A DNA stretch of 64,000 nt. It comes from Corynespora cassiicola (Eukaryota > Ascomycota > Dothideomycetes > Pleosporales > Corynesporascaceae). Location: positions 2,108,001 through 2,172,000 of the forward strand of contig JAEUWY010000002.1 of the NCBI GenBank assembly GCA_022059125.1. The letters run 5' to 3'. The notes beneath the pieces are model-generated. The model made no database searches. It saw nothing but the letters and a program-made list of their open reading frames with translations, and was not told where the DNA came from. A program made the position numbers and the translations under genes. Positions 21,440 through 45,314 of the stretch are shown here, in pieces. The stretch's first letter is position 1, and every line of letters begins with the position of its first letter.

Positions 21440-22343
21440 CTTGGCAATCGATACAAATGAGAACTTCCTTTAAAAAAGCCACATGTTCAGGCGGCATCGC
21501 GCGACAGTTTTCGTCAACAAGTGCGAGTTCGCGAAAAGGCCAGTGCTCGTCCCCAGATCCCCATGAGGCTGTTGACGCGTCGGTCCGTATTCGTTGTTGG
21601 ATTGCCGTTGGTTGACCGGTATTGGAGATGCATGTCAGACCCGAGGTACCTGCAGCCCGCCTTAGGTCAGCCTCCACATTCAGCAACCTCGTCGTTTCGG
21701 ATGTCCGCCCAGTTGCGGTAGACACCGCCAGTAAGAGAAGAGTGAGCGTAAGAGCCACTTCCTAATACGTCCTTGGGGAGCGGGAGTGCTATCCCTTTTA
21801 TTACCCTGTTTAGCACGCTGGTGATGATCGACGTGGTAAGCTCATGCGAAGCACTCCAATGTGTGCTGCTTTGCGCTTCCATCGCATGTTGTGAATTTTT
21901 TGCAATGGAACGATTTTCGCAAGATAGCCTTTACAAACTCATTTCTCTTCTACACTGACCAGTGTTCTAAAGATAGTCCAACAAAAGACCAGGCGCTGGG
22001 CTCAACTCCGGAATTCGAGCGAATGTGGCTTGTCCGAATTGGGCGCTGACTGGGCGAGCACCTTTCTAGTTCAGTCGAGCGCCCAACATCACTGGGCGTC
22101 CTCGTATACCGAGAATGCACGTGTCAGTGCTGGACAAGGGTGCTCATTGCCCAAAGCGGATTATGCCATCAAGTTACTTCCGATATAAAGATTGTACTTG
22201 GTCACGCTTCTGGTCCGACATCACAGCAGCGGAGTCGTTTTCTCTACTTCCTTTGTAGCATTTTCTGCAGTCTTTGCTTTTCGTGTTGCATCACTTTCGT
22301 TCTTCAGAGCTGAGCTCCTTTTCTTCACTCGTTTTGAGTCGCA
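21440..22343. promoter_or_regulatory. Intergenic, upstream of the Gly/Pro-rich gene
   Basis: About 900 bp. The 3' half must hold the promoter of the large Gly/Pro-rich gene. An antisense frame with a signal-peptide-like start exists at 21426-21758 but lacks an ATG (see rejected items). No gene is supported. Confidence 0.5.
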
Positions 22344-25136
22344 ATGGCTGCGAAGACGTTGTTTGCACTTACAGCCCTGGGTGGCATAGCTGCAGCGCTT
22401 CCTAGCAATGTTCATGGCCGGAGCGGATACGGAGGTAATGGAGGGTACCAACCCGGCAATGGCCAGGCCGACCCGCCAGCATATGGCGGTGGCAATGGCT
22501 ATGGGGGAGGAAAGCCTGGTGGTGGTGATGGTGATGGCTATGGCGGCGGCGGCGGCGGCGACGGTGGTTACGGCGGCGGCGGAGGATACAATCCCCCCAA
22601 GCCTCCCAAACCACCCAAGTCTTCAGACCCTCCCAAGCCATCTGATCCTCCCCATGCTCCCTCTACGCCTCCAGTTGAGCCTCCTTCACCCCCGGCTACG
22701 ACTGCCGAGCCATCTTCGCCTCCCGTGGATTCGTCTCCTCCGATCGTTCCCAGTGAGCCAGCAACTTCTATGCCAGAAGTTCCTCCCACTATCCCGGTAG
22801 ATCCGCCTATCTATCCAACTGGGCCGCCCGCATCGCCTCCGCCCAACCCAACTGCTCCAGCGTCTCCGCCACCTGGATGTCCTCCTGCTCCCGAGTGTCC
22901 CGCAGCTCCTCCAGCTCCTCCGGCTCCTGAGTGCCCCCCTGCTCCTCCAGCTCCCGAGTGTCCTGCACCCCCACCTGGAGGAATGACTACTATCACTGAG
23001 ACTGCTATCACCACTGCTACTGCGACCGAGGCCATTACCTCGATCCTCACTTCCACCCAAAAGGATGTCATTACGACCACAGTCATTTCCACCTCAAAGG
23101 AGATTATTACCTCCATCCAAACCTCTGCGCACACCATCACCGTCACGCAGACTATGCCTGGAGAGGCTCCTCCCTGCACCAACGATACTCCTGGAGTTCC
23201 ACCCTCGGGCCCGACTCCGCCGCCAGGTGAGGCTCCGCCTCCGTCTCCGCCGGAGGGGCCTTCGCACCCCCCTGTCCCACCTCCGGGTGAGAATCCGCCG
23301 CAAACAACGTCTGGACCTGAAGGACCTGGAGGCCCACCACCCGAGGGCCCCGGAAATCCACCTGGTCCCCCTAGCCCACCGCAGACGACATCTGGGTCTG
23401 AAGGCCCTGGAGGTCCGCCACCCGAGGGCCCCGAGAACCCACCTGGTCCACCTAGCCCGCCTCAGACTACTTCCGGCTCTGAGGGTCCGGGATATCCTCC
23501 TTCGGGACCAGAGAATCCTCCGGGACCGCCAAGCCCGCCAGAGACGACATCTCCACCCGAGGGACCTGGAGCTCCTCCACCTGGGCCACCAGGTCCTCCC
23601 CAGACTACTTCTGGATCTGAGAACCCAGGTAACCCACCTGATGGACCTGAGAAGCCTTCCGAGCCTGGTAGCCCACCACAGAGTACTTCTCCACCTGAGA
23701 ACCCAGAGCATCCTCCATCCGGGCCTGAAAACCCGCCTGGACCGCCTAGCCCACCACAGACTACTGCCGGCTCTGAGAACCCCGGCTACCCTCCTTCCGG
23801 ACCCTCTGGTCCAGAAAACCCACCGACCCCGCCTGAGAACCCCACTACGCCTCCAGTTCATGAGCCTTCCCAGCCTGGCAAACCTCCAGTGAACCCCCCT
23901 CAGCCTCCTCCAAGCCAATCCCATGGCACACCTCCCGTCATCACCCCCGGGTACCCCCCTCACAACCCCACCAACCCACCCTACACTGGGCATAATTCGA
24001 CCTACACCTACCCAGGCACGGGCTCAACCGGTTACACCATCTCTACCAGCACTATGAGCGAGATTCCCAGCGGATGCGACCCCAAGACCGAGTACTGCGG
24101 CGGTATGCCTCCAAGCTCCACGCAACCGCCAAGCTCGACACCAAGCTGTGACGGCGGATACGGAGGAGGAGATTGCCCCCCGCCCGGCACCACGGAAGTG
24201 CCCAAGCCCCCACCGAGCAGCACTGAGGGCCCCAAGCAGCCACCCAGCACCACGGAAATGCCCAAGCCTCCTCCAAGCGACGAGCCTGAGTGTGATGGTG
24301 GGTATGGAGGAGGAGACTGCCCGCCGCCAGATGCTCCCAAGCCCCCGCCAGGCGACAAGCCAGACGCCCCCAAGCCTCCCCCAGGCGACAAGCCAGATGC
24401 CCCCAAGCCCCCGCCAGAGGACAACCCTGAGTGTGACGGTGAATACGGAGGAGGAGACTGCCCACCGCCAGATGCTCCTAAGCCTCCACCAGGTGACAAG
24501 CCGGATGCCCCCAAGCCTCCCCCAGGCGACAAGCCGGACGCCCCCAAGCCTCCCCCAGGCGACAAGCCAGATGCCCCCAAGCCCCCGCCAGAGGACAACC
24601 CTGAGTGTGACGGTGAATACGGAGGAGGAGACTGCCCACCCCGGCGACAAGCCAGATGCTCCCAAGCCCCACCAAACGACAAGCCAGACGCCCCAAGCCC
24701 CCGCCAGAGGACAAGCCCGACTGCGACGGCGGCTACGGCGGAGCAGACTGCCCACCCCGGCGATAAACCTGACGCTCCCAAGCCCCCTCCTGGCGACAAA
24801 CCCGACGCTCCCAAACCCCCTCCAAACGACAAGCCCGATGCCCCCAAGCCCCCGCCAGAGGACAAGCCAGACTGCGACGGCAGCGGCTACGGCGGAGGGG
24901 ACTGCCCCCCTCCAGGCGACAAGCCTGACGCCCCCAAGCCCCCGCCAAACGACAAGCCTGAAGCGCCCAAGCCCCCGCCAGAGGACAAGCCTGGCAAGCC
25001 GCCTGGAGGTGGTGATGGAGGGTACGGAGGCGGCGGCGATGGCGGCTACGGCGGTGGTGGAAGCGGATACGGCGGAGGCGGCAGTGGATACGGCGGCGGC
25101 GGCGGAAGCGGAGGCGGATATGGGGGAGGGTATTAG
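22344..25136 (+). CDS. Secreted Gly/Pro-rich tandem-repeat cell-surface protein
   Basis: Predicted 930-residue single-exon protein. It opens with a signal peptide (MAAKTLFALTALGGIAAALPS) and a GGYGGGG-rich block to about residue 80, then a long Pro-rich region. At about 213-275 there is a Thr-rich segment (TITETAITTATATEAITS...) like those of fungal wall glycoproteins. The middle consists of PENPPGPPSPPQTTSGSEGPG-type repeats. The last third consists of GDKPDAPKPPP units punctuated by Cys pairs (CDGGYGGGDCPPP), and the protein ends in GGYGGGGSG repeats without a GPI signal. It is extensin-like in look, so a cell-wall or extracellular structural role is inferred. Residues about 765-805 are read in shifted frames of the repeat (see findings). 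No catalytic domain is visible. Confidence 0.85.
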   Translation: MAAKTLFALTALGGIAAALPSNVHGRSGYGGNGGYQPGNGQADPPAYGGGNGYGGGKPGGGDGDGYGGGGGGDGGYGGGGGYNPPKPPKPPKSSDPPKPSDPPHAPSTPPVEPPSPPATTAEPSSPPVDSSPPIVPSEPATSMPEVPPTIPVDPPIYPTGPPASPPPNPTAPASPPPGCPPAPECPAAPPAPPAPECPPAPPAPECPAPPPGGMTTITETAITTATATEAITSILTSTQKDVITTTVISTSKEIITSIQTSAHTITVTQTMPGEAPPCTNDTPGVPPSGPTPPPGEAPPPSPPEGPSHPPVPPPGENPPQTTSGPEGPGGPPPEGPGNPPGPPSPPQTTSGSEGPGGPPPEGPENPPGPPSPPQTTSGSEGPGYPPSGPENPPGPPSPPETTSPPEGPGAPPPGPPGPPQTTSGSENPGNPPDGPEKPSEPGSPPQSTSPPENPEHPPSGPENPPGPPSPPQTTAGSENPGYPPSGPSGPENPPTPPENPTTPPVHEPSQPGKPPVNPPQPPPSQSHGTPPVITPGYPPHNPTNPPYTGHNSTYTYPGTGSTGYTISTSTMSEIPSGCDPKTEYCGGMPPSSTQPPSSTPSCDGGYGGGDCPPPGTTEVPKPPPSSTEGPKQPPSTTEMPKPPPSDEPECDGGYGGGDCPPPDAPKPPPGDKPDAPKPPPGDKPDAPKPPPEDNPECDGEYGGGDCPPPDAPKPPPGDKPDAPKPPPGDKPDAPKPPPGDKPDAPKPPPEDNPECDGEYGGGDCPPRRQARCSQAPPNDKPDAPSPRQRTSPTATAATAEQTAHPGDKPDAPKPPPGDKPDAPKPPPNDKPDAPKPPPEDKPDCDGSGYGGGDCPPPGDKPDAPKPPPNDKPEAPKPPPEDKPGKPPGGGDGGYGGGGDGGYGGGGSGYGGGGSGYGGGGGSGGGYGGGY
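24301..24990. repeat. Tandem coding repeats, (G/E/N)DKPDAPKPPP units
   Basis: DNA-level tandem array inside the Gly/Pro-rich gene. The basic unit is 33 bp encoding GDKPDAPKPPP or the N and E variants, nested in longer blocks that end with CDGEYGGGDCPP. Near-identical copies indicate recent expansion or gene conversion. Confidence 0.85.
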
Positions 25137-30118: not shown

Positions 30119-31567
30119 TCAGATGTCTATCAACTTCGAGATGGCCGGCGTAGGGAGATCAGGCGATGGATCAGGGAGTGGAATGCCAATGTTTGATCCC
30201 GGTTTCTTCACCTTATAATATTTGAGTTGTAACTGGCCACGGGGAAGTTGAAGATGCGTCATACAGGCCGGTTCGTGGAAACAGCTGCGGCATGGGTGAT
30301 TGAAACAGGATTTTCTTTCCTGGTTCGTTCCACCTGGCTCGGCTTTAACATGTCTTGGATTGAGGCACATCCAGTTCCCGCAAAGATGGCTGGCATGGTA
30401 GGATTGGTTGACCAGTCCGTCCTTTTCCGCACTTGTAAGAAGGCCCTCCAGGAGCTTGGCGATGACGGTTATGTGGACGTAGACTGTTTCCGCCTTTCCA
30501 TGATGCTTGAAAGGTACATTCGTTCCGAGGCAGCATCTATCGTAAAATTTATGTGTGTAAAGCCAGCATTCATCAGGCCCTCTATTTGCATTTATATGCA
30601 GATAGTATCCCTGTAATATTCCTTCGAGGTACTCACGTTCCGATTCCCAATATGAGTAGTAAAACAACCCCTTGCGCTCTTCCACGGAAAGATCGCTCCT
30701 GGGCATGCTTTTCGGCGCTCCCAGAGCATATGAACCTATAGTATCAGGGTGTGCTTGATCTTTGTTATATGGATGGTTTGCCCTAGTAGAGGATGCAGGC
30801 ACCATGCTTCCTGCGTCATCTTCAATATCCGTGCCTTCGGTCTGCACGGTCTCTTGGGACCAAGTCAAAACGGGAGGTTCGTCTTCGTCATCTTCGTCAT
30901 CTTCGCCACCGTCATTTTCACTGTTGATGTGCGCAATTTGCGAGTTTTTATGTAGCGGTTGGCGCACTGGTCTGAGATCAAGATTGAAATCCTCATCATC
31001 CGAGGATCCATCATCGTCAGAGCATGAATTCGATTCACTATCTTGAATAGGCGTGTCAGAATTTCTAGAAACCCCCAAATCTGGGTATTCCCATGTCGCA
31101 CTCCGTGCTTTCCTCGAGGGGGTAGATTCTGAGAGATTTGGAAACTCTTCATCACTCTCATCCTCGTCGTCTGTGTTGTAAAGTACCCCTTCCCAGGACT
31201 GGTTCCGCAAAGATACCAGCTCATCGTCTTGCGAATACCGAGAAGCTCGCTCCAGAGAAGGACGTCTCACACTATCTCCCTCATTCGCTCTGTCGTCGAT
31301 GTCGATTACTGTACCATTGTCCTTGCGAGAGATGATGTTTCCGGTCACGCAATGAAGGAAATGGATCGGGCTTTCGGCAGTGCCATTGCCTTTTACGAGG
31401 GACGTATCTTCCACGACAACGATCTCATGGCCCCGGTGTTCTCCTTTATTCTTGTTTCGGCCAGTATCTTGCCTTTTGCTCGGACGTTCGGTTTCGTCCT
31501 CATCGTAGCTCTCCCATCTAAAACACCGTTTGAGTTTGTTAGAGAATTGGGATACACCGTCTGCCAT
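30119..31567 (-). CDS. His-Cys box (I-PpoI-like) nuclease-domain protein
   Basis: Predicted 482-residue single-exon protein. Residues 1-290 are acidic and disordered, with several Asp/Glu runs. The C-terminal half (about 300-440) matches the zinc-bound His-Me finger fold of I-PpoI-type His-Cys box nucleases. The core is ASHLCGNWMCLNPRHV (392-407) followed by TNQERKSC and CFHEPAC. By alignment of motif spacing, H394 is the general base and N415 the metal ligand. C334, C396, C401 and H406 form one zinc site; C421, C429, H431 and C435 the second. All positions expected for catalysis and zinc binding are present. The protein is a chromosomal gene, not within an intron or rDNA, so it is a stand-alone domesticated or regulatory member of the family. 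Whether it cleaves DNA is not known. Confidence 0.8.
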   Translation of the reverse strand: MADGVSQFSNKLKRCFRWESYDEDETERPSKRQDTGRNKNKGEHRGHEIVVVEDTSLVKGNGTAESPIHFLHCVTGNIISRKDNGTVIDIDDRANEGDSVRRPSLERASRYSQDDELVSLRNQSWEGVLYNTDDEDESDEEFPNLSESTPSRKARSATWEYPDLGVSRNSDTPIQDSESNSCSDDDGSSDDEDFNLDLRPVRQPLHKNSQIAHINSENDGGEDDEDDEDEPPVLTWSQETVQTEGTDIEDDAGSMVPASSTRANHPYNKDQAHPDTIGSYALGAPKSMPRSDLSVEERKGLFYYSYWESEREYLEGILQGYYLHINANRGPDECWLYTHKFYDRCCLGTNVPFKHHGKAETVYVHITVIAKLLEGLLTSAEKDGLVNQSYHASHLCGNWMCLNPRHVKAEPGGTNQERKSCFNHPCRSCFHEPACMTHLQLPRGQLQLKYYKVKKPGSNIGIPLPDPSPDLPTPAISKLIDI

Positions 31568-34110
31568 GTTGAGATATTTCCACTCTGATGCGATATGACG
31601 GGATCAGAGACAAAAGTGGAAAATTAGAAGTGGTTGACTGAATATAGCAATGGTAGCTTGGCTAGTATTCAAGAGGTGGCTCTGGTTAATGATAAGGATA
31701 GAAAGTAGGAGATGTAGTGGAGCTGGAGAGAGGTGTCATATGCCTGATCCTTACTTGTCGTTTGATGTGCGACGGTGGTCCAGCTTCAGGGTAGTATGTC
31801 TGAGGGTCTCGTTTACCCAAGGCTACGGTTAACTATGAATGCTTTGGTGAAGGTTATTGCACATGTGTCCAAAAGCTGACGAGGATTGGCCCAATAGTGA
31901 GAAGATTCTAACTGCTTCATTGTTCAAAGCAAAGCAAGGAGGCTCCGAGAGTGCCACTCCCAGGTTCACCGACAAAAGTGAGGTGGGCATACCAACATAT
32001 GCCTACAACGGTCCAGTTGTAAAGGTAGCCGTTGCCAGTGCCACCAACTGCACGAGATGGAATCTACACTCATCTGCTTTACTTACCTGGCCAAATCATC
32101 AGGCAGATGTTCCTCCTCAACACCCGTCACATCACGCAACCGAAAAGCTAGCAACATCGCCTTCCGGCCCCAGCCTCCCCATCCACCCTTCCCGACTCAC
32201 GATCCGACATCCATCCGACACCGGCATACGTTTACCACCATCCCCACCAAGATCGGAGCACGCTCATTTCTTACCCTCCTCTCCCCACCGTGCACCCATC
32301 CCACTCTACCCGCCACTCGCCCTGTCAGTCGGCCGCCCAAACTCGCAATCCCGGGCATAACCTCGGTAGCTTCACCCCCGTCCAACCTACCCCATCACAT
32401 CCCCCTCCATTCTATAATTACTCATCTCCATTCATGCCATGGCAAAACCTCTCCAAACCACTGGCGCTTCAACTAGAAAGCGCAGCGAAACATCGAAGCA
32501 AGTAAATAGAGGGCACAAAAAGATCCGTCTATTCCCCGGCACGAGGGCGATGAGAAAAAAAATAAAATAAAAACGGCCCTTCCACCAAGCAACACAAAGT
32601 GGACCTGCCCCAAGAAGCCCCGACCCGCCAAGCCGCGCCGCACTTCTTAAAACGAACAAGGCGGCTCAAAAAACCTGTTCTTAGCATGGCATCTCAGGTG
32701 CAAAGAAAAAAAAAAGAGTGTGAGAAAAAGTCTTGGGCGAGACGGCAGGTCCATCATGGCAAATAGGAAAACCTGGGCGCGAGTAGGCTCAAAGTTATGG
32801 GCTAGCACGGTGGGGTGCTGTGCTCACGTGCGGGCGCGCATTTGGGGGCCATCGGGCCGACAGGCGGGGGGTTCCGTACCTAGGTAGGTAGCTATACGTC
32901 GACTAACCCAGGCTCACGCACGTTGGCAGTACCACGACGGTGAGCAAGATACCTCCCAGCCCACACATACACACAGCGGTCGGGGGCCTATCCAGTCCCT
33001 TTCCCCCCGAGGACGCGCCCAGCACGCAAGGCGTGCAGCTCCATCGGCCGTGAGATTTTGGCGGACATGCAAGCCGGGCAGGACGCACGTACGCTGCTCT
33101 GCAGGAATGGGATAGATTGAATGTAAATGGCGGGGTTATATACGCGACATGCAGCGAACCCGTGTAGAAGGGTTCCAGAAGGAGCAAATTAACGGGAAGG
33201 TGTAGCTTTTGTTCCGACCGCCCTGGCCCTGAGGCCCAGCCTAGCGTTGTATACAACGCGGAGCGGGAGAGGAAGAAGGGGGGCTAGGTACCTAGACGGG
33301 TGGTGGGCAGGTCAGGCGGCTGCTGCACGCACAGCGACCATGCTTTCCCCCCCGGCTGACGACGCGCGAGGAGATGAGATGAGATGTGTATGTGGCACCC
33401 AGCGCAGCACCGCACAGTGGCCCAAACACCCCACGTACCCGTCGCACAAAAAAAGCTCCAGCTTACACACAGAGACATGGGCGAAGGGCCTCTACCAAGA
33501 TGCGCGCTCGTTGCGGGATAGAGTGCTCGTACCCGAGACCAGGTCAGCGAGGCGGGCGGCCGCAGTGTAACCAGGCTCGACGCCCGCCCCGACGGCGCTG
33601 GACGGGCAGGCAGCGTAGCTGTGCAGACACACGCAGACGGCGAGGCTGCGGCGAGGCAGAGAGTAGGATCAACGACTGGGCCGATGACGATCTGCACGGC
33701 GGGGATCCAGGTCGTGCCCCTGGTGGTTGGCGTCTGCCGGCATCGAGCTGCTCTGCGGTGCTCTGCGCTGGATGGAGTACTGAATGACGGACAGCCGTGG
33801 ACCTTGGTTTCTCCCGCCCGTTTCATGAACGGCGTTCGTTTGATTAGACTACGCAGGGCGGGCCGAACAGGCGGTTAGTACGCAGCATACACCCACCCCC
33901 CATGTAAGGCCATGCAGGCAGGCAGGCAGCCAGCCAGCCAGGCTAGTCGGGGTGCTCGCGCGACGCAACCCCATGATTGCGCCGTGGACCGCGGGGGAGA
34001 AGGCTTCCAAAGCAGCATGCCGTGTCCGAGCCGCGAGAGGCCAGGCGGCGGGCAAAAGGACACGGGCGGATGAGCTGGACGCGATGGATTGTGTGTGAGC
34101 AGCAAAGCAA

Positions 34111-38143: not shown

Positions 38144-38542
38144 GGTGGCTGTCGTTTGGCGTTATCGGGTGACGGAGGGAGTGTCTCGGTAGTCCGCACA
38201 TGGGGAGCTCTGAGTGGGTCCGACGCTTTGCTACGGCAGACCGCACAAGCCAAAGGCGCAGACGCGGGGTTAGTCAGCATCACCACGCATCTACCATGGA
38301 ATGCAGGCGACTGCGTGCGCAGGTGTGGCAACCATCTTTTCTACCCGAACCCTTCTCCTAACGAGTACACTTCTGCTCCAAGCGATGCCCAGAGGCTCTG
38401 CTGACGGGCGTGTGTAGATCCCAGGGCAGTCACCAACTAGCTCGCGCGTCAGTGGAGCTCAGCCACGTTCCTAACAACCTCAAGAAGCCAGGGATCCCTC
38501 AAGGACACTGCTGCATCCTTTGATTCTGTAATCACAGCTGCC
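38144..38542. promoter_or_regulatory. Bidirectional promoter HAD/Zn2Cys6
   Basis: 399-bp spacer between divergent start codons. No coding sequence is supported. Confidence 0.6.
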
Positions 38543-40984
38543 ATGACGGAGACAAGTCCTTCCTCCCTTTCCGAAGGTAGTAGCGCACCCCCCATCGTAC
38601 CCTCGGTGGAACTCCTCGGTCGAGCGCCGATCAAGAGAGCTCGCCCACAGCTAAGCTGCACCCCGTGTCGCCAAGGGAAGCTCAAGTGCAATCGTGAACA
38701 CCCCGTTTGTGACCAATGTGCCAAGCGGTCCAAACACGATGCTTGCCACTACGTTCCACCGCCGCCCAAGAACAGACAAGCGCAGAACATGCGTGGCCGA
38801 ATCAAGAATCTGGAGAGCCTCGTCGTCAACCTGATCAACCAAAAGGCGCAGGAGCAGGAAAGCACCGGAAACGGCCCTCAGATTCCAACCCACTCGAGCC
38901 GTGCAGCTGGAGAAGTGATTCGCGGGGCAAGCATCGAACCCGATGCTGAGACATTTGGTCAGCTCCATATCAGCAACTCTGGAAACGAGACCAGATACGT
39001 TGGCGCCGGTCATTGGTCCTCGCTCCTCAAAGAGATTGAAGAGGTCAAAGATAGCCTAGAGTCGGATGATGAAGATGAGTCCCCGGAAGAAGTATGGGAT
39101 CATGCAAACGCTCGCTCAACCGTCACCTTTGGCGTGCCAAGACCAATCACAAAGGCCCAGCTGATACAGGAGATGCCTCCCAAAGCAGAAGTCGACAGGC
39201 TGCTACCGCTATGGTTCAACTCTGCCGATCCACTCTTGTACATTATCCATGCCCCCACTTTCCAAGAGGAGTACAAACAGTTCTGGAATGATCCGAATTC
39301 GATGCCAGTGATGTGGATTGCTCTGCTATACAGTGCCATGGCACTTGGAATCATCCTTGGCCCGCGAAACCCCGGGATGAATGCTCAAGTCACCGCACAT
39401 AGTGACGCATCAGATTCGCCCTACGGCAAGAGTGATTACTTGGGCAACTCGGTCAACAAGTTTCAGCAACTAGCTTCTTCTGCCTTGGTTTTGGCTGATA
39501 TTGCGAAATCACAGCCTTATACTTTGGAGTCTTTGATGATCTATGGAGAATGCGAGTTTCTTCGCAGAGATGACAACCATTCCAAGATCTGGCTCATGAA
39601 TGGTGTCACTCTCAGAGTCGCTATGCGCATGGGATATCACAGGGATCCCAGCAACTTCAAGGGCATCTCTCCCTTTCACGGCGAAATGCGGAGGCGTGTG
39701 TGGCATGTGCTCAATATGATGGATACTCTGGTCTCCTTTGCCATTGGACTCCCGACATTGTTACGCCGCGTGGAGAGCGACGCCCGCGCACCCCACAACT
39801 ACATCGACTCGGACATATCCCCGTCAATGAACGAGCTGCCAAGGGAACGCCCCGCTACAGAAATTACGCCCGCAACATACACAATCGCAAAGTCCAGGGT
39901 TTGCGTCGTTTTCGCCGAGGCGGCCGAGCTCTCTCAAAGAGTCATCCCACCAAAACACTCAACAATCATGGAGCTAGACCGGCGACTTGAGGAGGCGCAT
40001 GACTTGATTCCTGAAGGAATGCGTGTCCGCCCAATGGAAGACTGCATCACGGAACAACCCGTACTGATCATGAGCAGGTTCAACATCGAGGTTCTTTATC
40101 AGAAAACAAGACTCGTTCTGCATCGAAACTATCTTACAGCTGGTCAGACGGACGCCAGATTTGCAGAGTCGAGAAAAATCTGTGTGAACGCGGCCCTGAA
40201 ACTTCTCAACTACCACGACATAATTTTTCACGCTTGCCAACCTGGTGGACAGTTGAATAAGGTCTGGTGGTACATGAGTTCCTTGCAAGCTTATGACTTC
40301 CTGCTGGGCGCCATGATCTTGTGTCTCGAGTTGAACCATCTACGCACTGCTGGCGATACATCGCCCAGGACACAGGAATTGTTGGGGGTCCTTGAGAACA
40401 CTTACTCGATATGGGCAAATCACCCTAATCGCTACAGAGAATCAGTAAGGGGGGCCGAGATTCTCAAAACGATGCTGAAGAAATGTTCCGCACCCGTCGC
40501 ATCCGAGCCAAATGTCCAAGATACGGCTCAAAATGGATATCAGAACAGTATGGCTAGACCGCTGCCGAAAGAAGTAAATGGTAACACTTCACCAGATATC
40601 GGAAATCTGCCCCCTACTGGGCTAACACCCAACCCGATGCCAGAGGGACTCCCACCTCAGATCTGGGGATCCTGGGCTCAGCCCGATGCGCCATCACTCG
40701 AAATGCCTGATATTCCTTCAGAGATAGACTGGGTAAGGTGCTTCACTCGGACATCTTTCGCTCGCGCTAACGTCGCTTAGACACTTTGGGATTCCACGAT
40801 GCAGGGCCACAACAATATGATGCCCCAGCAAACCTGGGGCATGAACAACGCCACCATGGAATCTTGGATCGGGGCTACTGCAGATGTGGACAACATGCTT
40901 GATAGTGGCTTTCACGACTTCCGCGACCCGCTGAATGTTTTCTCTGCCACGGGCTACATCCCTCAGGATTTCCAAACGAGTTAA
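38543..40984 (+). CDS. Zn2Cys6 fungal-specific transcription factor
   Basis: Predicted 797-residue binuclear zinc cluster regulator. Exons: 38543-40732 and 40781-40984, with a 48-bp intron. The DNA-binding cluster has C39, C42, C49, C56, C59 and C68 (CX2CX6CX6CX2CX8C; CTPCRQGKLKC...VCDQCAKRSKHDAC). It is followed by a short coiled coil (MRGRIKNLESLVVNLINQK) for dimerisation. The middle homology region (fungal-specific TF domain) spans about 210-600, with LLPLWFNSADPLLYIIHAPTF, ALGIILG, MRMGYHRDPSNFKGISPFHGEMRRRVW and LLRRVESDARAPHNYIDSDI. The C-terminus is Pro/Met/Gln-rich, perhaps an activation region. Target genes cannot be read from the sequence; it is divergent from the HAD gene, but co-regulation is only a guess. 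Confidence 0.92.
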
Positions 40985-41900
40985 CATCTTTTCGAGTGTG
41001 CTCCCAAGATGTATTCTTTCCCCTTATATCAAGCATCAAGCAAGATTACAGTCACTCTGAACATACTAAACTGTATGCTCTCAAGTTTCAATTCATATAT
41101 GCAGCCAAGCTTACCGCATCAAACAGGAAATTTAGGCTTCAGTGCTGAGGCGTCAAATCATTTTAGGGCGTCTGCATATCTCTGAATTCGATTCAGGGCG
41201 TTGATCCCATTCAACTCTAGTCTGGTCTAGATGTCAGCCTCAACATCTTGGTTCTCGCTAGTTTTGTCAGCGGGTGCACGTTGTTGCTTCCCACGAGCTC
41301 TGTGCTACCGGTGGACCATGCGGAAGCCACCGCAGGGCGATTGGGCCTGGGATTTGTCGGCTTTCCTTCTAGAATCTCTGGAAAAAAAACCATTTTTCTT
41401 CGGTAATCTTGTTCCTAGGTCCCAGAATCGGGTTGTCTTGGAGCCAAAAGGCAGGTAGTTCTCCTGTGGACCGTCCTAGAACCATCAAGAAAGGGGTTCA
41501 TCCACCAATAATCGGCCTCTATCCGTTTTTGGCTCTTCACAATCTCCTTTTCTTGGATGTTTATAGCCAATGGTTGCGTCGATGCTGGCGAGAACAATAG
41601 TAAGAAGAACAATACTAGGGGCGCATCAACCCTTGCCACACGAACTCCCCCACCACCAGCCCACCCTTCATTCCCCTATCTTTCTTTGACGTAAGTCCGT
41701 ATTACCATATCTCTTCGCCCTTTGAGGATTGCAATCTTCAAAGCGGGGTATCCCAAAGATCTCGCACCTTTCGCGCCTTCAAAAATGCATAAATACCTCC
41801 AACGACCCCCGTCCCGAAGATCGCATCCCACCCACCAGAACATCCAATCATTACAACAACACCAAACACTCCTTCTAAACCCACCAACCACACAATCAAA
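40985..41900. promoter_or_regulatory. Spacer upstream of the CaaX-repeat peptide gene
   Basis: About 900 bp. It includes the 3' UTR of the Zn2Cys6 gene and the promoter of the small peptide gene, with a TATA-like CATAAATA at 41788-41795 followed by a C/A-rich leader. No other gene is supported. Confidence 0.55.
41788..41795 (+). promoter_or_regulatory. TATA-like element of the peptide gene
   Basis: CATAAATA lies 106 bp upstream of the ATG at 41901. A C/A-rich, G-poor leader follows and the start context is CAAAATGTC, a good fungal initiation context. Confidence 0.5.
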
Positions 41901-42050
41901 ATGTCTGGACCCAAGCCCGGAGCTAGCTGCATCATCATGAGGGGCCCCAAGCCAGGAGCCAGCTGCACCGTCAGCAAAGGCCCTAAGCCAGGAGCCAGCT
42001 GCACCGTCTGCAAGGACCCCAAGCCCGGATCCTCATGTACCGTCATGTAA
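41901..42050 (+). CDS. 49-residue four-repeat CaaX peptide precursor candidate
   Basis: A 150-bp frame (ATG 41901, TAA 42048-42050) encodes a peptide that is almost entirely four tandem 12-residue units. Each starts (G/D)PKPG(A/S)SC. The Cys at positions 10, 22, 34 and 46 each open a CaaX-like tetrad: CIIM, CTVS, CTVC and, at the extreme C-terminus, CTVM. The three internal tetrads are each followed by one basic residue (R, K, K) and then the next unit. M, S and C are the final residues preferred by protein farnesyltransferase. There is no signal peptide, as in a-factor-type lipopeptide pheromone precursors. The nearest described analogue I know is the h-type precursor of Trichoderma, with repeated CTVM units. 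Function is inferred; alternatives are a non-pheromone prenylated peptide or a thiol/metal-binding peptide (Cys at 37 too). TATA-like element, leader and start context support expression. Confidence 0.7.
   Translation: MSGPKPGASCIIMRGPKPGASCTVSKGPKPGASCTVCKDPKPGSSCTVM
41907..42050 (+). repeat. 36-bp tandem repeat, four copies
   Basis: The peptide gene consists of four 36-bp units (last one shorter) at about 41907, 41943, 41979 and 42015, each starting near GGNCCNAAGCC. Copies differ mostly at third codon positions and in the last codons of each unit, which suggests selection on the PKPG(A/S)SC core. Confidence 0.85.
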
Positions 42051-43066
42051 AAGCGCCACGGTGCCCAGTATAGGATGACCCTCGACCGGACTCCTCGCCT
42101 GCCGCTTCTAGACGGCGAAATCACGTACAACACCACGACGACGGACGAGCGGATCCTTATATACACACCCGCGCGGAATATGAACACTTCTCTTCGGTAT
42201 TATTATTATTTTTTCGATTCGGTGGTGGATAGAGATGTATCTTTATGGATTTGAGAAGGGTGTGAGGGGGCGTTTGGTCCAACTGCAAAGCCTGCCTCCG
42301 CTGAGCTCCTTACGCGCCGCTCGAGCACTCGCGTTTTTTCACCTGTTGCGATGACGATACTCGAAATTTTCTGCCGGACATATATCCTTTTCGAAGACAA
42401 CACAATAAGGGATTCAGTGACGGGAAGAAGGGATGGTCTTTGGACAAGCGGAAAACAAGGTGGGAAGGTGGCGCTGTTATTTTTCTTTGTACAGTCCAAT
42501 CGAATCTTCGGATAACTTGATAAGATGCGCAATTTATTGGTTTTGGGAGGGGATTTCCTGCGATCTGTTCTGGGTGGATGACTTGACCTTCCTGTTCTTG
42601 GACGAGGATTGGGTTGTCTTAGCTCTGGAGGAGGTTGTGGTTTGATAGGAATATACCTTGCAAACGGAGATGCTGCACTCTGATATGTGATGTAGCATTT
42701 GTGATACGAGAAGTATGGGCGATGGGTGAAGTTGTAATTTAATGCTGACATGAGATTGATGTTCCAATATCCCAAGTTGAATACAATGGGAAGTGTTACT
42801 GATACTTTGCCCCTCATATGTACAATAGCAAGCGGGCGGTGGCTCATGTCCACTTCGACACCCTCAAATTAAGCAAAGGAAGCCATCCCATAAAAGATGA
42901 AGGGATGATAAGGAATTTGGCTTTATAAGAATATGCGTAGGAGTCAATCAACTCTTTTCGATATAAACATCCATTTGCAAAGTTGAATGTGACGGTAAGT
43001 TTCTATAGGGCAATACCATCTCAAATGAAGTCTGAGCCCCCGCCAGCGTTCCACTCTGCAGAACCT
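42051..43066. other. Spacer, no supported gene
   Basis: 1 kb between the peptide gene and the 3' end of the copper amine oxidase. Frames of up to 215 codons on the minus strand have no recognisable features. It includes the peptide gene's 3' UTR. Confidence 0.5.
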
Positions 43067-45314
43067 CTAATCAGGAGTCGGTTTCCCCATACCACAGCAC
43101 ACTTCAGCTTTGACACCGCTCTCCTTCAAGGCAACACCATTGCCTATATCGCCATTTGCCATCTGCTTTTGATCCTCGTACAACACACTCTTGTTGAACT
43201 CCTGGTTGCTTGGTGGCACATCATTAGTCGGATTAAAAGTGCAAAAGTTATACGGCTTCAAATGCATTTGCGCAATCTCTGCCGGCATAATCGGGAAATC
43301 CTCCACCCTCGGGATATGATTGAACCCAAAGGTATGCCAGATGACGATGTCCTCGTCAATCACGTGATCCCGCTCAGCAGTCCAACTCTTGATACCATGT
43401 CCCCCCAGAGATTGATTGGTGTAGTCTCCCGAGGGGAAAAGCTGGCGGTCTTTGTACTTGGTGACCCACATTGGGTGTTCGGCAAACTCGGAGCGTCGCC
43501 AGTGCCAGGAGCCGGGCTGGGCGAGGAGCATCTGCGAGCGGATGGGAACTATCTTGTAGCCGATGGGCGTTCGCGATACCTCGTTCTCAATGTGCGGGTT
43601 CACCACTTTGAACACTCGTCCAGCGAGGTAGTCGTCCGGCACAGGGCCAGCGCGGTGGACTTGGGTCTCCTTTGTGACGTAGCCAGTGCCAAGGGGATTG
43701 AGCTCCTTGTCCCAAGGAAGTTGGACCGAGTCGGAGAATGTGAAGGTATTTCCCTGGGGACCGCCAATTGCCGGGTCAATGCGCACGTTGAAAATGTGTT
43801 GGTGGTAAGGCGCCATGACTCCGTCCGCGACTCGCGTGCCCCACGGTACGCGCGCTTCCTCATTGATGGGTTGAGTGGACAGAATACCCGTCGCGCGTGT
43901 CTCAAAGGTGATTTCTCCAGACTGGTCAAAGATCCATGCGAAAATATATTCGTAGTTGGCCACTGTGATGATCTGCTGCAACACAAGCTGCCGCTTGCGG
44001 ACCACCGTTGCCTTTCCGGTTCGATGGTTTGTATGTTTCCATTGAATCCCCTGATCGACCTCGTGTATGCAGATTGCGTTGGGCCGAGGCGAGGCACTTC
44101 CATCGACCGCGACGACGCAGCCGTCGATGTATTTGATGACACCAAGACAATCACACCCCACTATACAGGCTGTTAGATGATATCTCTGGGACTTGGGGCG
44201 CGATAAAGACTCACATGATAGATTGTTCGCTGTCACGCCTGCTCCAACATTGCCAAGGTCGAAGGCGCCTTTCCTGAAAATCGGGTTCCGCGGATCGCCA
44301 TATGGAACGAACATTTCTGACAAGGAAAGGCGATAGAATGCGCTTTTGTTCATAAAATGCACATCGTGAATGGTCACCCCTACTTGGGTTAAATGATTCT
44401 CAGATGCCAACGAGATTGGCTGGTTGCTTGCCTTCACGCCAGTTGAATCCCACCCTGAAACGGAACTTCTCCCATTCGATCAGATGCCCCTTGACGGTGA
44501 AGGAAGCACCTTCTGGCTGGACAACATTGTATGGCTTTACGGTAGTGCGAGGCTTATTCTTTTGTAGTCTGTGATCATACTCTGGCTCGACAGGCTTAGT
44601 TCTTCGATGAGGCACACTAGATCCCACCAGTGTTGTAGAACTATCGGAGCCTAGGGGAAGCCGAAGCACTTTTTTGACAATCATTTTAGACAGGTCAACA
44701 ATGACCATGAAATCTAGCGGAAATGAGTAATGCGACGAATCGGGGTCATTGTTTTCCGGGTTTCGCATGTACATGAAAACCTAGAACCTTTTTTTAGAAT
44801 GAGTGGTATATTAAGGGTCTAGCCAAGAGCTTACTTGTGTGTGACGTTCTTGAGTCTCTTCCCCATCAACGCCATAGTCCCAGGGGTCAAGTACAACTGT
44901 AGTTTCATCGATTTGAAGACGCTCAATCTCCTTCTTTACGACAGGATCGCGCATGACGACCTGAGCAGCTTCGTTAAGCTCAGTTCGATCAACTGGGCCA
45001 TGGAAGTCACGTGGGAGCTCTTTATACGAGAGCACTTGGTTATTGGTGACATCCACGACACCCTCGAATAGTCTCGGCGTGCGTTTGATGTACCAGATAG
45101 CGAAGATGCGACGGGGGAGATCTGGCACGGGCTTTCCACTATGTTCGGCCTCGAGATAGGCTTTGAGTTCTTGTTTAGGCGGTTCATCGAGTCCAGCAGC
45201 TTTGAAGTGAAGAGGAATGCCATAGAAAAGATTCTTGATCTGACTTGTGGCATTCTCAATCTCCTTCGCCGTAGCTGGATCCAAAGGGTGCGCAAATGGT
45301 CTTTCTACGAGCAT
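43067..45314 (-). CDS. Copper amine oxidase (TPQ-containing)
   Basis: Predicted 695-residue copper amine oxidase, oxidising primary amines to aldehydes with release of NH3 and H2O2. Exons on the minus strand: 44835-45314, 44432-44780, 44215-44379, 43067-44160; 696 codons. Catalytic residues are intact. D317 (FDLGNVGAG) is the base. TPQ precursor Y401 lies in ANYEY. Copper ligands are H451 and H453 (YHQH) and H613 (NHIPRVEDFPIMP). LGCDCLGVIKY follows exon 3. Intron 2 is a canonical GC-AG intron (GAAG|GCAAGC...GTAG|GG). Intron 3 happens to be stop-free, so an unspliced reading adds a false segment. No signal peptide and no clear SKL-type peroxisomal signal: the C-terminus is KPTPD. Divergent from the Myb gene across 268 bp. 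Confidence 0.95.

Follow-up and report, generated by a model that had tools for sequence, protein, structure and literature searches.

Fungal pheromone precursors that carry more than one CaaX-like tetrad have been described in other fungi, and these are among the closest known counterparts of the gene considered here, an open reading frame (ORF) of 49 amino acids (aa) at 41901-42050 (+) of a 64,000-nucleotide stretch of the Corynespora cassiicola genome (Pleosporales, Dothideomycetes; contig JAEUWY010000002.1, positions 2,108,001 to 2,172,000), referred to below as the window. The Trichoderma reesei protein HPP1 is an h-type precursor with three Cys tetrads and is essential for male fertility (PMC3068285). 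According to the available text of that account, two Kex2 sites were found only in the HPP1 of Hypocrea jecorina and are not a feature of all h-type proteins, one Kex2 sequence is mentioned for the candidate of H. atroviridis, and fruiting bodies and ascospore discharge persisted when the Kex2 sites were removed from HPP1 (PMC3068285). In Huntiella and other Ceratocystidaceae, each predicted mature peptide of the multi-unit a-factors has its own variable CaaX/CpaX box (PMC10182648, PMC13037118); in Huntiella this box varies between repeats, whereas the peptide preceding it often differs by no more than a few residues (PMC10182648). The poly-CaaX architecture is already known, from the h-type proteins of Trichoderma and Fusarium, from Huntiella and from rhodotorucine A. 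In the last of these, a single basic residue follows each spacer, several genes are present and the peptide sequence is unrelated to that of the Corynespora ORF. The rhodotorucine A precursor of the basidiomycete Rhodosporidium toruloides provides a poly-CaaX precedent whose processing enzymes are described as unknown in the part of the source available (PMC3068285).

A putative a-factor of the Leotiomycetes has 45-64 aa, most frequently ends in CTVM and is unannotated in most genomes (PMC10569646). Its N-terminus is rich in S and T, a GY motif is present in 87 species, and the available text of its description makes no mention of internal repeats. According to the 2023 paper that presents this candidate, the Sordariomycetes had until then been the sole filamentous ascomycetes with a known a-factor gene (PMC10569646), and within the Pezizomycotina the literature covered here reports a-factors from Sordariomycetes and Leotiomycetes only. 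For the Dothideomycetes, no a-factor was found in the portions of the openly licensed literature that were available (supplements not covered), and the dothideomycete host raises the interest of the present precursor, of which the sequence, the fungal class and the leaderless layout appear new.

A candidate precursor with four tandem units

Translated with the standard code from ATG to TAA, with no intron needed, the ORF gives MSGPKPGASCIIMRGPKPGASCTVSKGPKPGASCTVCKDPKPGSSCTVM, which consists of MS followed by three units of 12 residues and one of 11 residues without a linker. An earlier reading of this DNA from its letters alone (the sequence-only reading) had described four units of 12 residues; four units with PKPG[A/S]SC and a tetrad are indeed present, the equal length failing at the last. 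The units, all on the + strand, are GPKPGASC-IIM-R (unit 1, 41907-41942), GPKPGASC-TVS-K (unit 2, 41943-41978), GPKPGASC-TVC-K (unit 3, 41979-42014) and the C-terminal DPKPGSSC-TVM (unit 4, 42015-42047). In each, the Cys opens a CaaX-like tetrad, and the translation agrees with the earlier listing of these as CIIM, CTVS, CTVC and CTVM, with the last exactly at the C-terminus and a single basic residue (R, K and K) at all three internal junctions. The terminal CaaX/CpaX box CTVM (42036-42047, +) is the predicted farnesylation site and has the commonest end of the putative Leotiomycete a-factor. No hydrophobic run is seen in the N-terminal MSGPKPGAS and, judged by reading, the protein has no signal peptide. 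With 49 aa and a CTVM end it falls among proteins of fewer than 100 aa with a CaaX/CpaX end, as a-factors do, and the multi-unit CaaX architecture is found in all four units, with the identity of the internal boxes not conserved.

Tandem Repeats Finder places the array at 41910-42047, with a period of 36, 3.8 copies, 77% matches and a score of 148. The window contains 545 ATG-initiated ORFs of 20-100 aa, of which three close with a CaaX-like tetrad (by our own loose definition of such a tetrad), and among those three internal tetrad repeats occur only in 41901-42050. Further copies were looked for in the same genome with both protein and DNA searches, which returned none, leaving the ORF as the single copy found.

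Like the h-type HPP1 forms of Trichoderma and Fusarium, as far as these are described, the Corynespora protein is short, carries repeated Cys tetrads of which the last is the terminal CaaX/CPAX box, and has no predicted signal sequence (PMC3068285). Unlike them it has four units rather than three, contains no Kex2 dipeptide, is not near cyanate lyase and comes from another fungal class. Moreover, the h-type consensus (LI)GC(TS)VM, reported in three copies, is not matched, since the corresponding places read ASCIIM, ASCTVS, ASCTVC and SSCTVM. The lack of dibasic Kex sites, by which the sequence-only reading had set the ORF apart from h-type precursors, is confirmed, but the contrast is a weak one because Kex2 sites do not occur in all h-type proteins.

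With the a-factors of Huntiella and other Ceratocystidaceae, in the descriptions available, the precursor shares the separate and variable box of each unit, the absence of a signal peptide and a basic residue before or heading each unit. The contrast in Huntiella between a variable box and a steady peptide is matched by that between codons 1-8 of the Corynespora units and the residues that follow the Cys. However, the Ceratocystidaceae units (which start with R, have Q at position five and nearly always end in P) are unrelated in sequence. Huntiella has up to seven genes with a non-repeat N-terminal part, whereas here there is one copy with units from residue 3, and Huntiella belongs to the Sordariomycetes and not to the Dothideomycetes. 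The hydrophobic N-terminus given for Ceratocystidaceae (PMC13037118) is also absent, as judged by reading. The Leotiomycete a-factor resembles the precursor in its length, its CTVM end and its lack of annotation, but the S/T-rich N-terminus and the GY motif are both lacking here. Hydrophobic or S/T-rich N-termini and GY are marks of Ceratocystidaceae, Leotiomycete and Sordariomycete members, not of all a-factors. Judged by its sequence, the precursor is best read as one that would work like a multi-unit a-factor and not as a member of the h-type group.

We therefore favour, as probable, the reading that 41901-42050 is a short gene whose product, built of four tandem units, is a precursor of the a-factor type (prenylated, ligand of STE3), because of the codon constraint and putative 5' leader described below, the presence of STE3 and ICMT genes in the genome and the close architectural precedents, and because a conserved short peptide followed by a Cys, a tetrad that varies and a basic linking residue is the pattern described for multi-unit a-factors. 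The earlier suggestion of a multi-unit prenylated peptide of this type is thus partly supported, as regards a coding, multi-unit CaaX gene; by sequence the product is not an h-type member, since it does not match the h-type consensus.

In the mechanism proposed, the 49-residue precursor, which lacks a signal peptide, would be synthesized in the cytosol, and its terminal CTVM would be farnesylated, trimmed of TVM and then carboxymethylated. Internal units would be released by cleavage at the single R, K and K after each tetrad, and the linker residue would then be removed so that the exposed C-x-x-x end could be prenylated. The products would be up to four near-identical octapeptides, [G/D]PKPG[A/S]SC(farnesyl)-OMe, exported by a Ste6-type ABC transporter and perceived by the STE3 of a MAT1-1 partner. 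Farnesyltransferase prefers certain last residues, and M, S and C are compatible with it; the X residues of the four tetrads (M, S, C and M), together with the basic linkers, would hence suit both this enzyme and a basic-residue protease. Release of the internal units appears to be the weakest step, and the terminal unit alone could serve. Tentatively, and with slightly less than even confidence, we propose further that the gene supplies the a-factor so far missing from a dothideomycete, in the form of a leaderless poly-CaaX precursor that evolved independently and yields four prenylated PKPG octapeptides through cytosolic cleavage at single basic residues. If so, poly-CaaX precursors would appear to have separate origins in Dothideomycetes, Sordariomycetes and Basidiomycota.

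Coding constraint and a putative 5' leader

Since a period of 36 is divisible by three, many frames of such an array stay open, and the units were for this reason compared in all six frames against random placement of an equal number of changes. The test treats changes from the unit consensus as independent, weights transitions 2:1 and rests on one genome and one copy of the ORF. Of the 18 codon pairs that differ within the PKPG[A/S]SC core, 15 are silent in the ORF frame, compared with 0, 2, 2, 4 and 9 of 18 in the five other frames. Against an expectation of 6 amino-acid changes, the core has a single one in the ORF frame (P = 2e-4 and 4e-4 in runs of 100,000 and 20,000, respectively), and the five other frames are consistent with chance (P 0.15-0.95). 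The bounds of the core were set after its conservation had been seen, which makes the values for wider stretches the safer ones: P = 0.004 for the stretch from P to V in the ORF frame and P = 7e-4 for unit codons 1-11. Unit codons 1-8 have 2 changes against 7.2 expected (P = 1e-4). In three units one Ser is encoded by AGC, in the fourth by TCA. Any gene conversion among the units would cut the number of changes, without favouring silent ones. Hence 41901-42050 is more than an open frame, its units diverging mostly silently in the ORF frame alone.

Immediately before the ATG lies a putative 5' leader of 105 nt (41796-41900, +) with 5.7% G, 82% A+C and no ATG. Stretches of leader-like composition number three in the window when both strands are searched, the leader itself included; neither of the other two has the look of a leader, and one of them is beside an apparent tRNA gene. 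The limits of composition were taken from the leader itself, which makes the measure a rare but not a specific one. A TATA-like ATAAATA (41789-41795, +), a consensus match only, is found ~110 bp before the ATG, and position -3 of the start context (TCAAA-ATG) is an A.

These results bear on the alternative that the array is a non-coding minisatellite, or that the coding unit is an antisense ORF of 102 aa (41738-42046, -) overlapping the precursor ORF, in which case the openness of the forward frame would be due to chance. Reading frames in a repeat of 36 bp do tend to remain open, and the antisense ORF does overlap. However, silent changes predominate in the forward frame only, the G-poor leader is on the + strand directly upstream of the ATG, and the antisense ORF has no Pfam match. 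An antisense or non-coding repeat is disfavoured by the comparison of the six frames, and we regard it as very improbable.

Considered by themselves, the three positions that follow the Cys have 4 changes against 4.8 expected (P = 0.39), in keeping with a neutral rate. The post-Cys identities of the internal units are thus unconserved, so that the internal boxes may be mere spacers, and both points weigh against the a-factor-type precursor with four working units. They speak instead for maturation of the terminal unit only, in which the three upstream units would be duplication remnants or a pro-region and the function might still be that of an a-factor. Only a C-terminal CaaX serves as a substrate of farnesyltransferase, which points the same way. 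So does the production of fruiting bodies and the discharge of ascospores by T. reesei with HPP1 devoid of Kex2 sites (PMC3068285). A single working unit, however, leaves unexplained a core that is constrained across four units, and the basic linkers are kept at 3/3 internal junctions. We consider maturation of the last unit alone unlikely, though worth keeping in view.

Mating genes, competing candidates and relatives

The genome that holds the precursor ORF (G000; 44.35 Mb in 23 contigs, with the ORF on contig C2) has one matching place each for STE3, in two exons, for STE2 and for ICMT. A MAT1-1-1 alpha-box gene is on the same contig as the ORF, ~0.74 Mb away, and among the 10 of 21 frames scanned around it are an endonuclease/exonuclease frame, in which a GRF zinc finger scores below the cut-off, and an APC5-like frame. 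The endonuclease/GRF frame would be APN2-like. Elsewhere in the class, STE3 is reported in Aureobasidium (PMC4227064), and a study of Dothideomycetes gives a single Ste6-like gene per genome for every fungus it covers (PMC6071951). For the Dothideomycetes, which have STE3 and Ste6-like genes, the ORF offers a concrete candidate sequence for mate recognition, and should it be what we propose, mate recognition in this class becomes testable. Other such genes could be sought by looking for small ORFs in which Cys tetrads recur and the units have diverged silently.

Several further observations weigh against a four-unit a-factor-type precursor. The predicted protein has neither the S/T-rich N-terminus nor the GY motif known from other a-factors. 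The ORF start misses a stricter start pattern that 47 of 2159 ATGs show, and no TGAAACA element occurs in 40780-43070. The adjacency to cyanate lyase, where several Sordariomycete a-factors are located, is wanting, as the lyase is on contig C12 and the precursor ORF on C2. No tandem alpha-pheromone array was seen in the genome with three patterns, although STE2 is present, and the partner signal is consequently unaccounted for. Two of these patterns gave scattered matches: WCxxxGQxC occurs at 5 places (3 in the control; frames were read for those five only) and CxxPGQxC at 19 (12 in the control), no two of them adjacent. The third, PYG[LM]P[IV]G, is a motif reported in a catalogue of Pleosporales alpha-pheromones (PMC6339444) and occurs at zero places in the genome (2 in the control). 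The alpha-pheromone of this genome may have diverged.

Synteny with the a-factor locus of Sordariomycetes was also considered and was rejected on the position of cyanate lyase on another contig and the lack of a repeated-unit ORF near it, the 19.9 kb around the lyase containing three small CaaX-like ORFs, none with repeated units. One of the WCxxxGQxC matches (L028; G000:C6:3324002-3324028, -) falls within a long frame that carries Cys and hydrophobic stretches, and not within a pheromone repeat.

Relatives of the precursor were sought among ~5.8 billion predicted proteins, where the 49-aa query gave 28 candidates and an extended query of 73 aa gave 785, none of either set with E up to 10, which likewise counts against the favoured reading. 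Contigs of prokaryote genomes returned 153 pattern matches and no relative of the precursor, solved structures three matches at chance level only (best E 0.31), and Pfam one match below the cut-off (E 0.028; 14.7 bits against 27), and the letters of the peptide are absent from the text of the openly licensed papers searched. Missing annotation is reported as a common trait of pheromone genes (PMC10569646). The lack of a family match above the cut-off, together with five Cys in 49 residues and one CxxC motif (CTVC), would suit a small Cys peptide of another kind, metal-binding or thiol, with an incidental CTVM end. Against this, four of the five Cys fall one per unit, each first in a tetrad whose end is compatible with farnesyltransferase and the last exactly at -4, and we give such a peptide scarcely any credence.

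The chief competitor for the a-factor role comes from a genome-wide search for the CTVM end, the only end searched, which gave 19 places (4 in a reversed control). Six of these read TGG in place of a stop and 13 have a stop. The latter comprise four ATG-initiated ORFs of 20-100 aa (L012, which is 41901-42050, L013, L014 and L017), five ends of longer frames and four places in which the only Met is that of the tetrad. The L013 ORF (G000:C4:553078-553206; L013:1387-1515, +) encodes 42 aa, MPGSTSSSSTTGSITKPMPKPIKCPCYCGDDCSFCCIPCTVM, with an S/T-rich N-terminus, a CTVM end, seven Cys in all (six beside that of the CaaX box), no repeat and no Pfam match. From its sequence it is a candidate for a rival a-factor or for a Cys-rich prenylated peptide, and as such is a further point against 41901-42050 as the a-factor gene. 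It gives substance to the alternative that 41901-42050 encodes a prenylated signal or membrane peptide outside mating (for quorum sensing, for self signalling or as an anchored peptide), in which case the true a-factor would be encoded elsewhere, for instance by L013. The S/T-rich N-terminus and the CTVM end of L013 are marks of the Leotiomycete a-factor (PMC10569646), and a pheromone of F. oxysporum is reported to have been co-opted for quorum sensing (PMC10182648). However, with its six extra Cys and no repeat L013 is unlike the a-factors described, which the poly-CaaX layout at 41901 fits better. A non-mating role for the precursor is thus, in our view, distinctly unlikely, and the four-unit a-factor-type precursor is preferred here too.

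Flanking genes and other features of the window

Upstream of the precursor ORF is a Zn2Cys6 transcription factor frame with a Fungal_trans domain (38441-40780, +), and downstream a copper amine oxidase gene (43067-45314, -) whose 3' end faces the ORF. Among the 120 best of 2992 matches, the protein nearest to the oxidase is that of Corynespora cassiicola strain Philippines, with 412/419 and 274/277 aligned residues identical when two introns are excluded; this one protein points to C. cassiicola or a near relative. The gap between the two flanking genes measures 2.3 kb and, as both converge on it by their 3' ends, it needs no promoter for either. An ORF of 213 aa in the gap (42206-42847, -), which like the antisense ORF has no Pfam match, is assumed to have arisen by chance and not to be a gene.

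Two features elsewhere in the window may be mentioned. A long Pro-rich frame at 22338-25136 (+), 932 aa from stop to stop, has an apparent signal peptide, MAAKTLFALTALGGIAAALPS, and an end rich in Gly and Tyr, and carries numerous PKPPPGDKPDA and CDGxYGGGDC repeats; it has no Pfam match, its repeat array partly reads as frame-shifted, and it is perhaps a secreted wall protein. At 30119-31603 (-) there is a match to the homing endonuclease zinc-binding loop (PF05551, E 1.9e-10).
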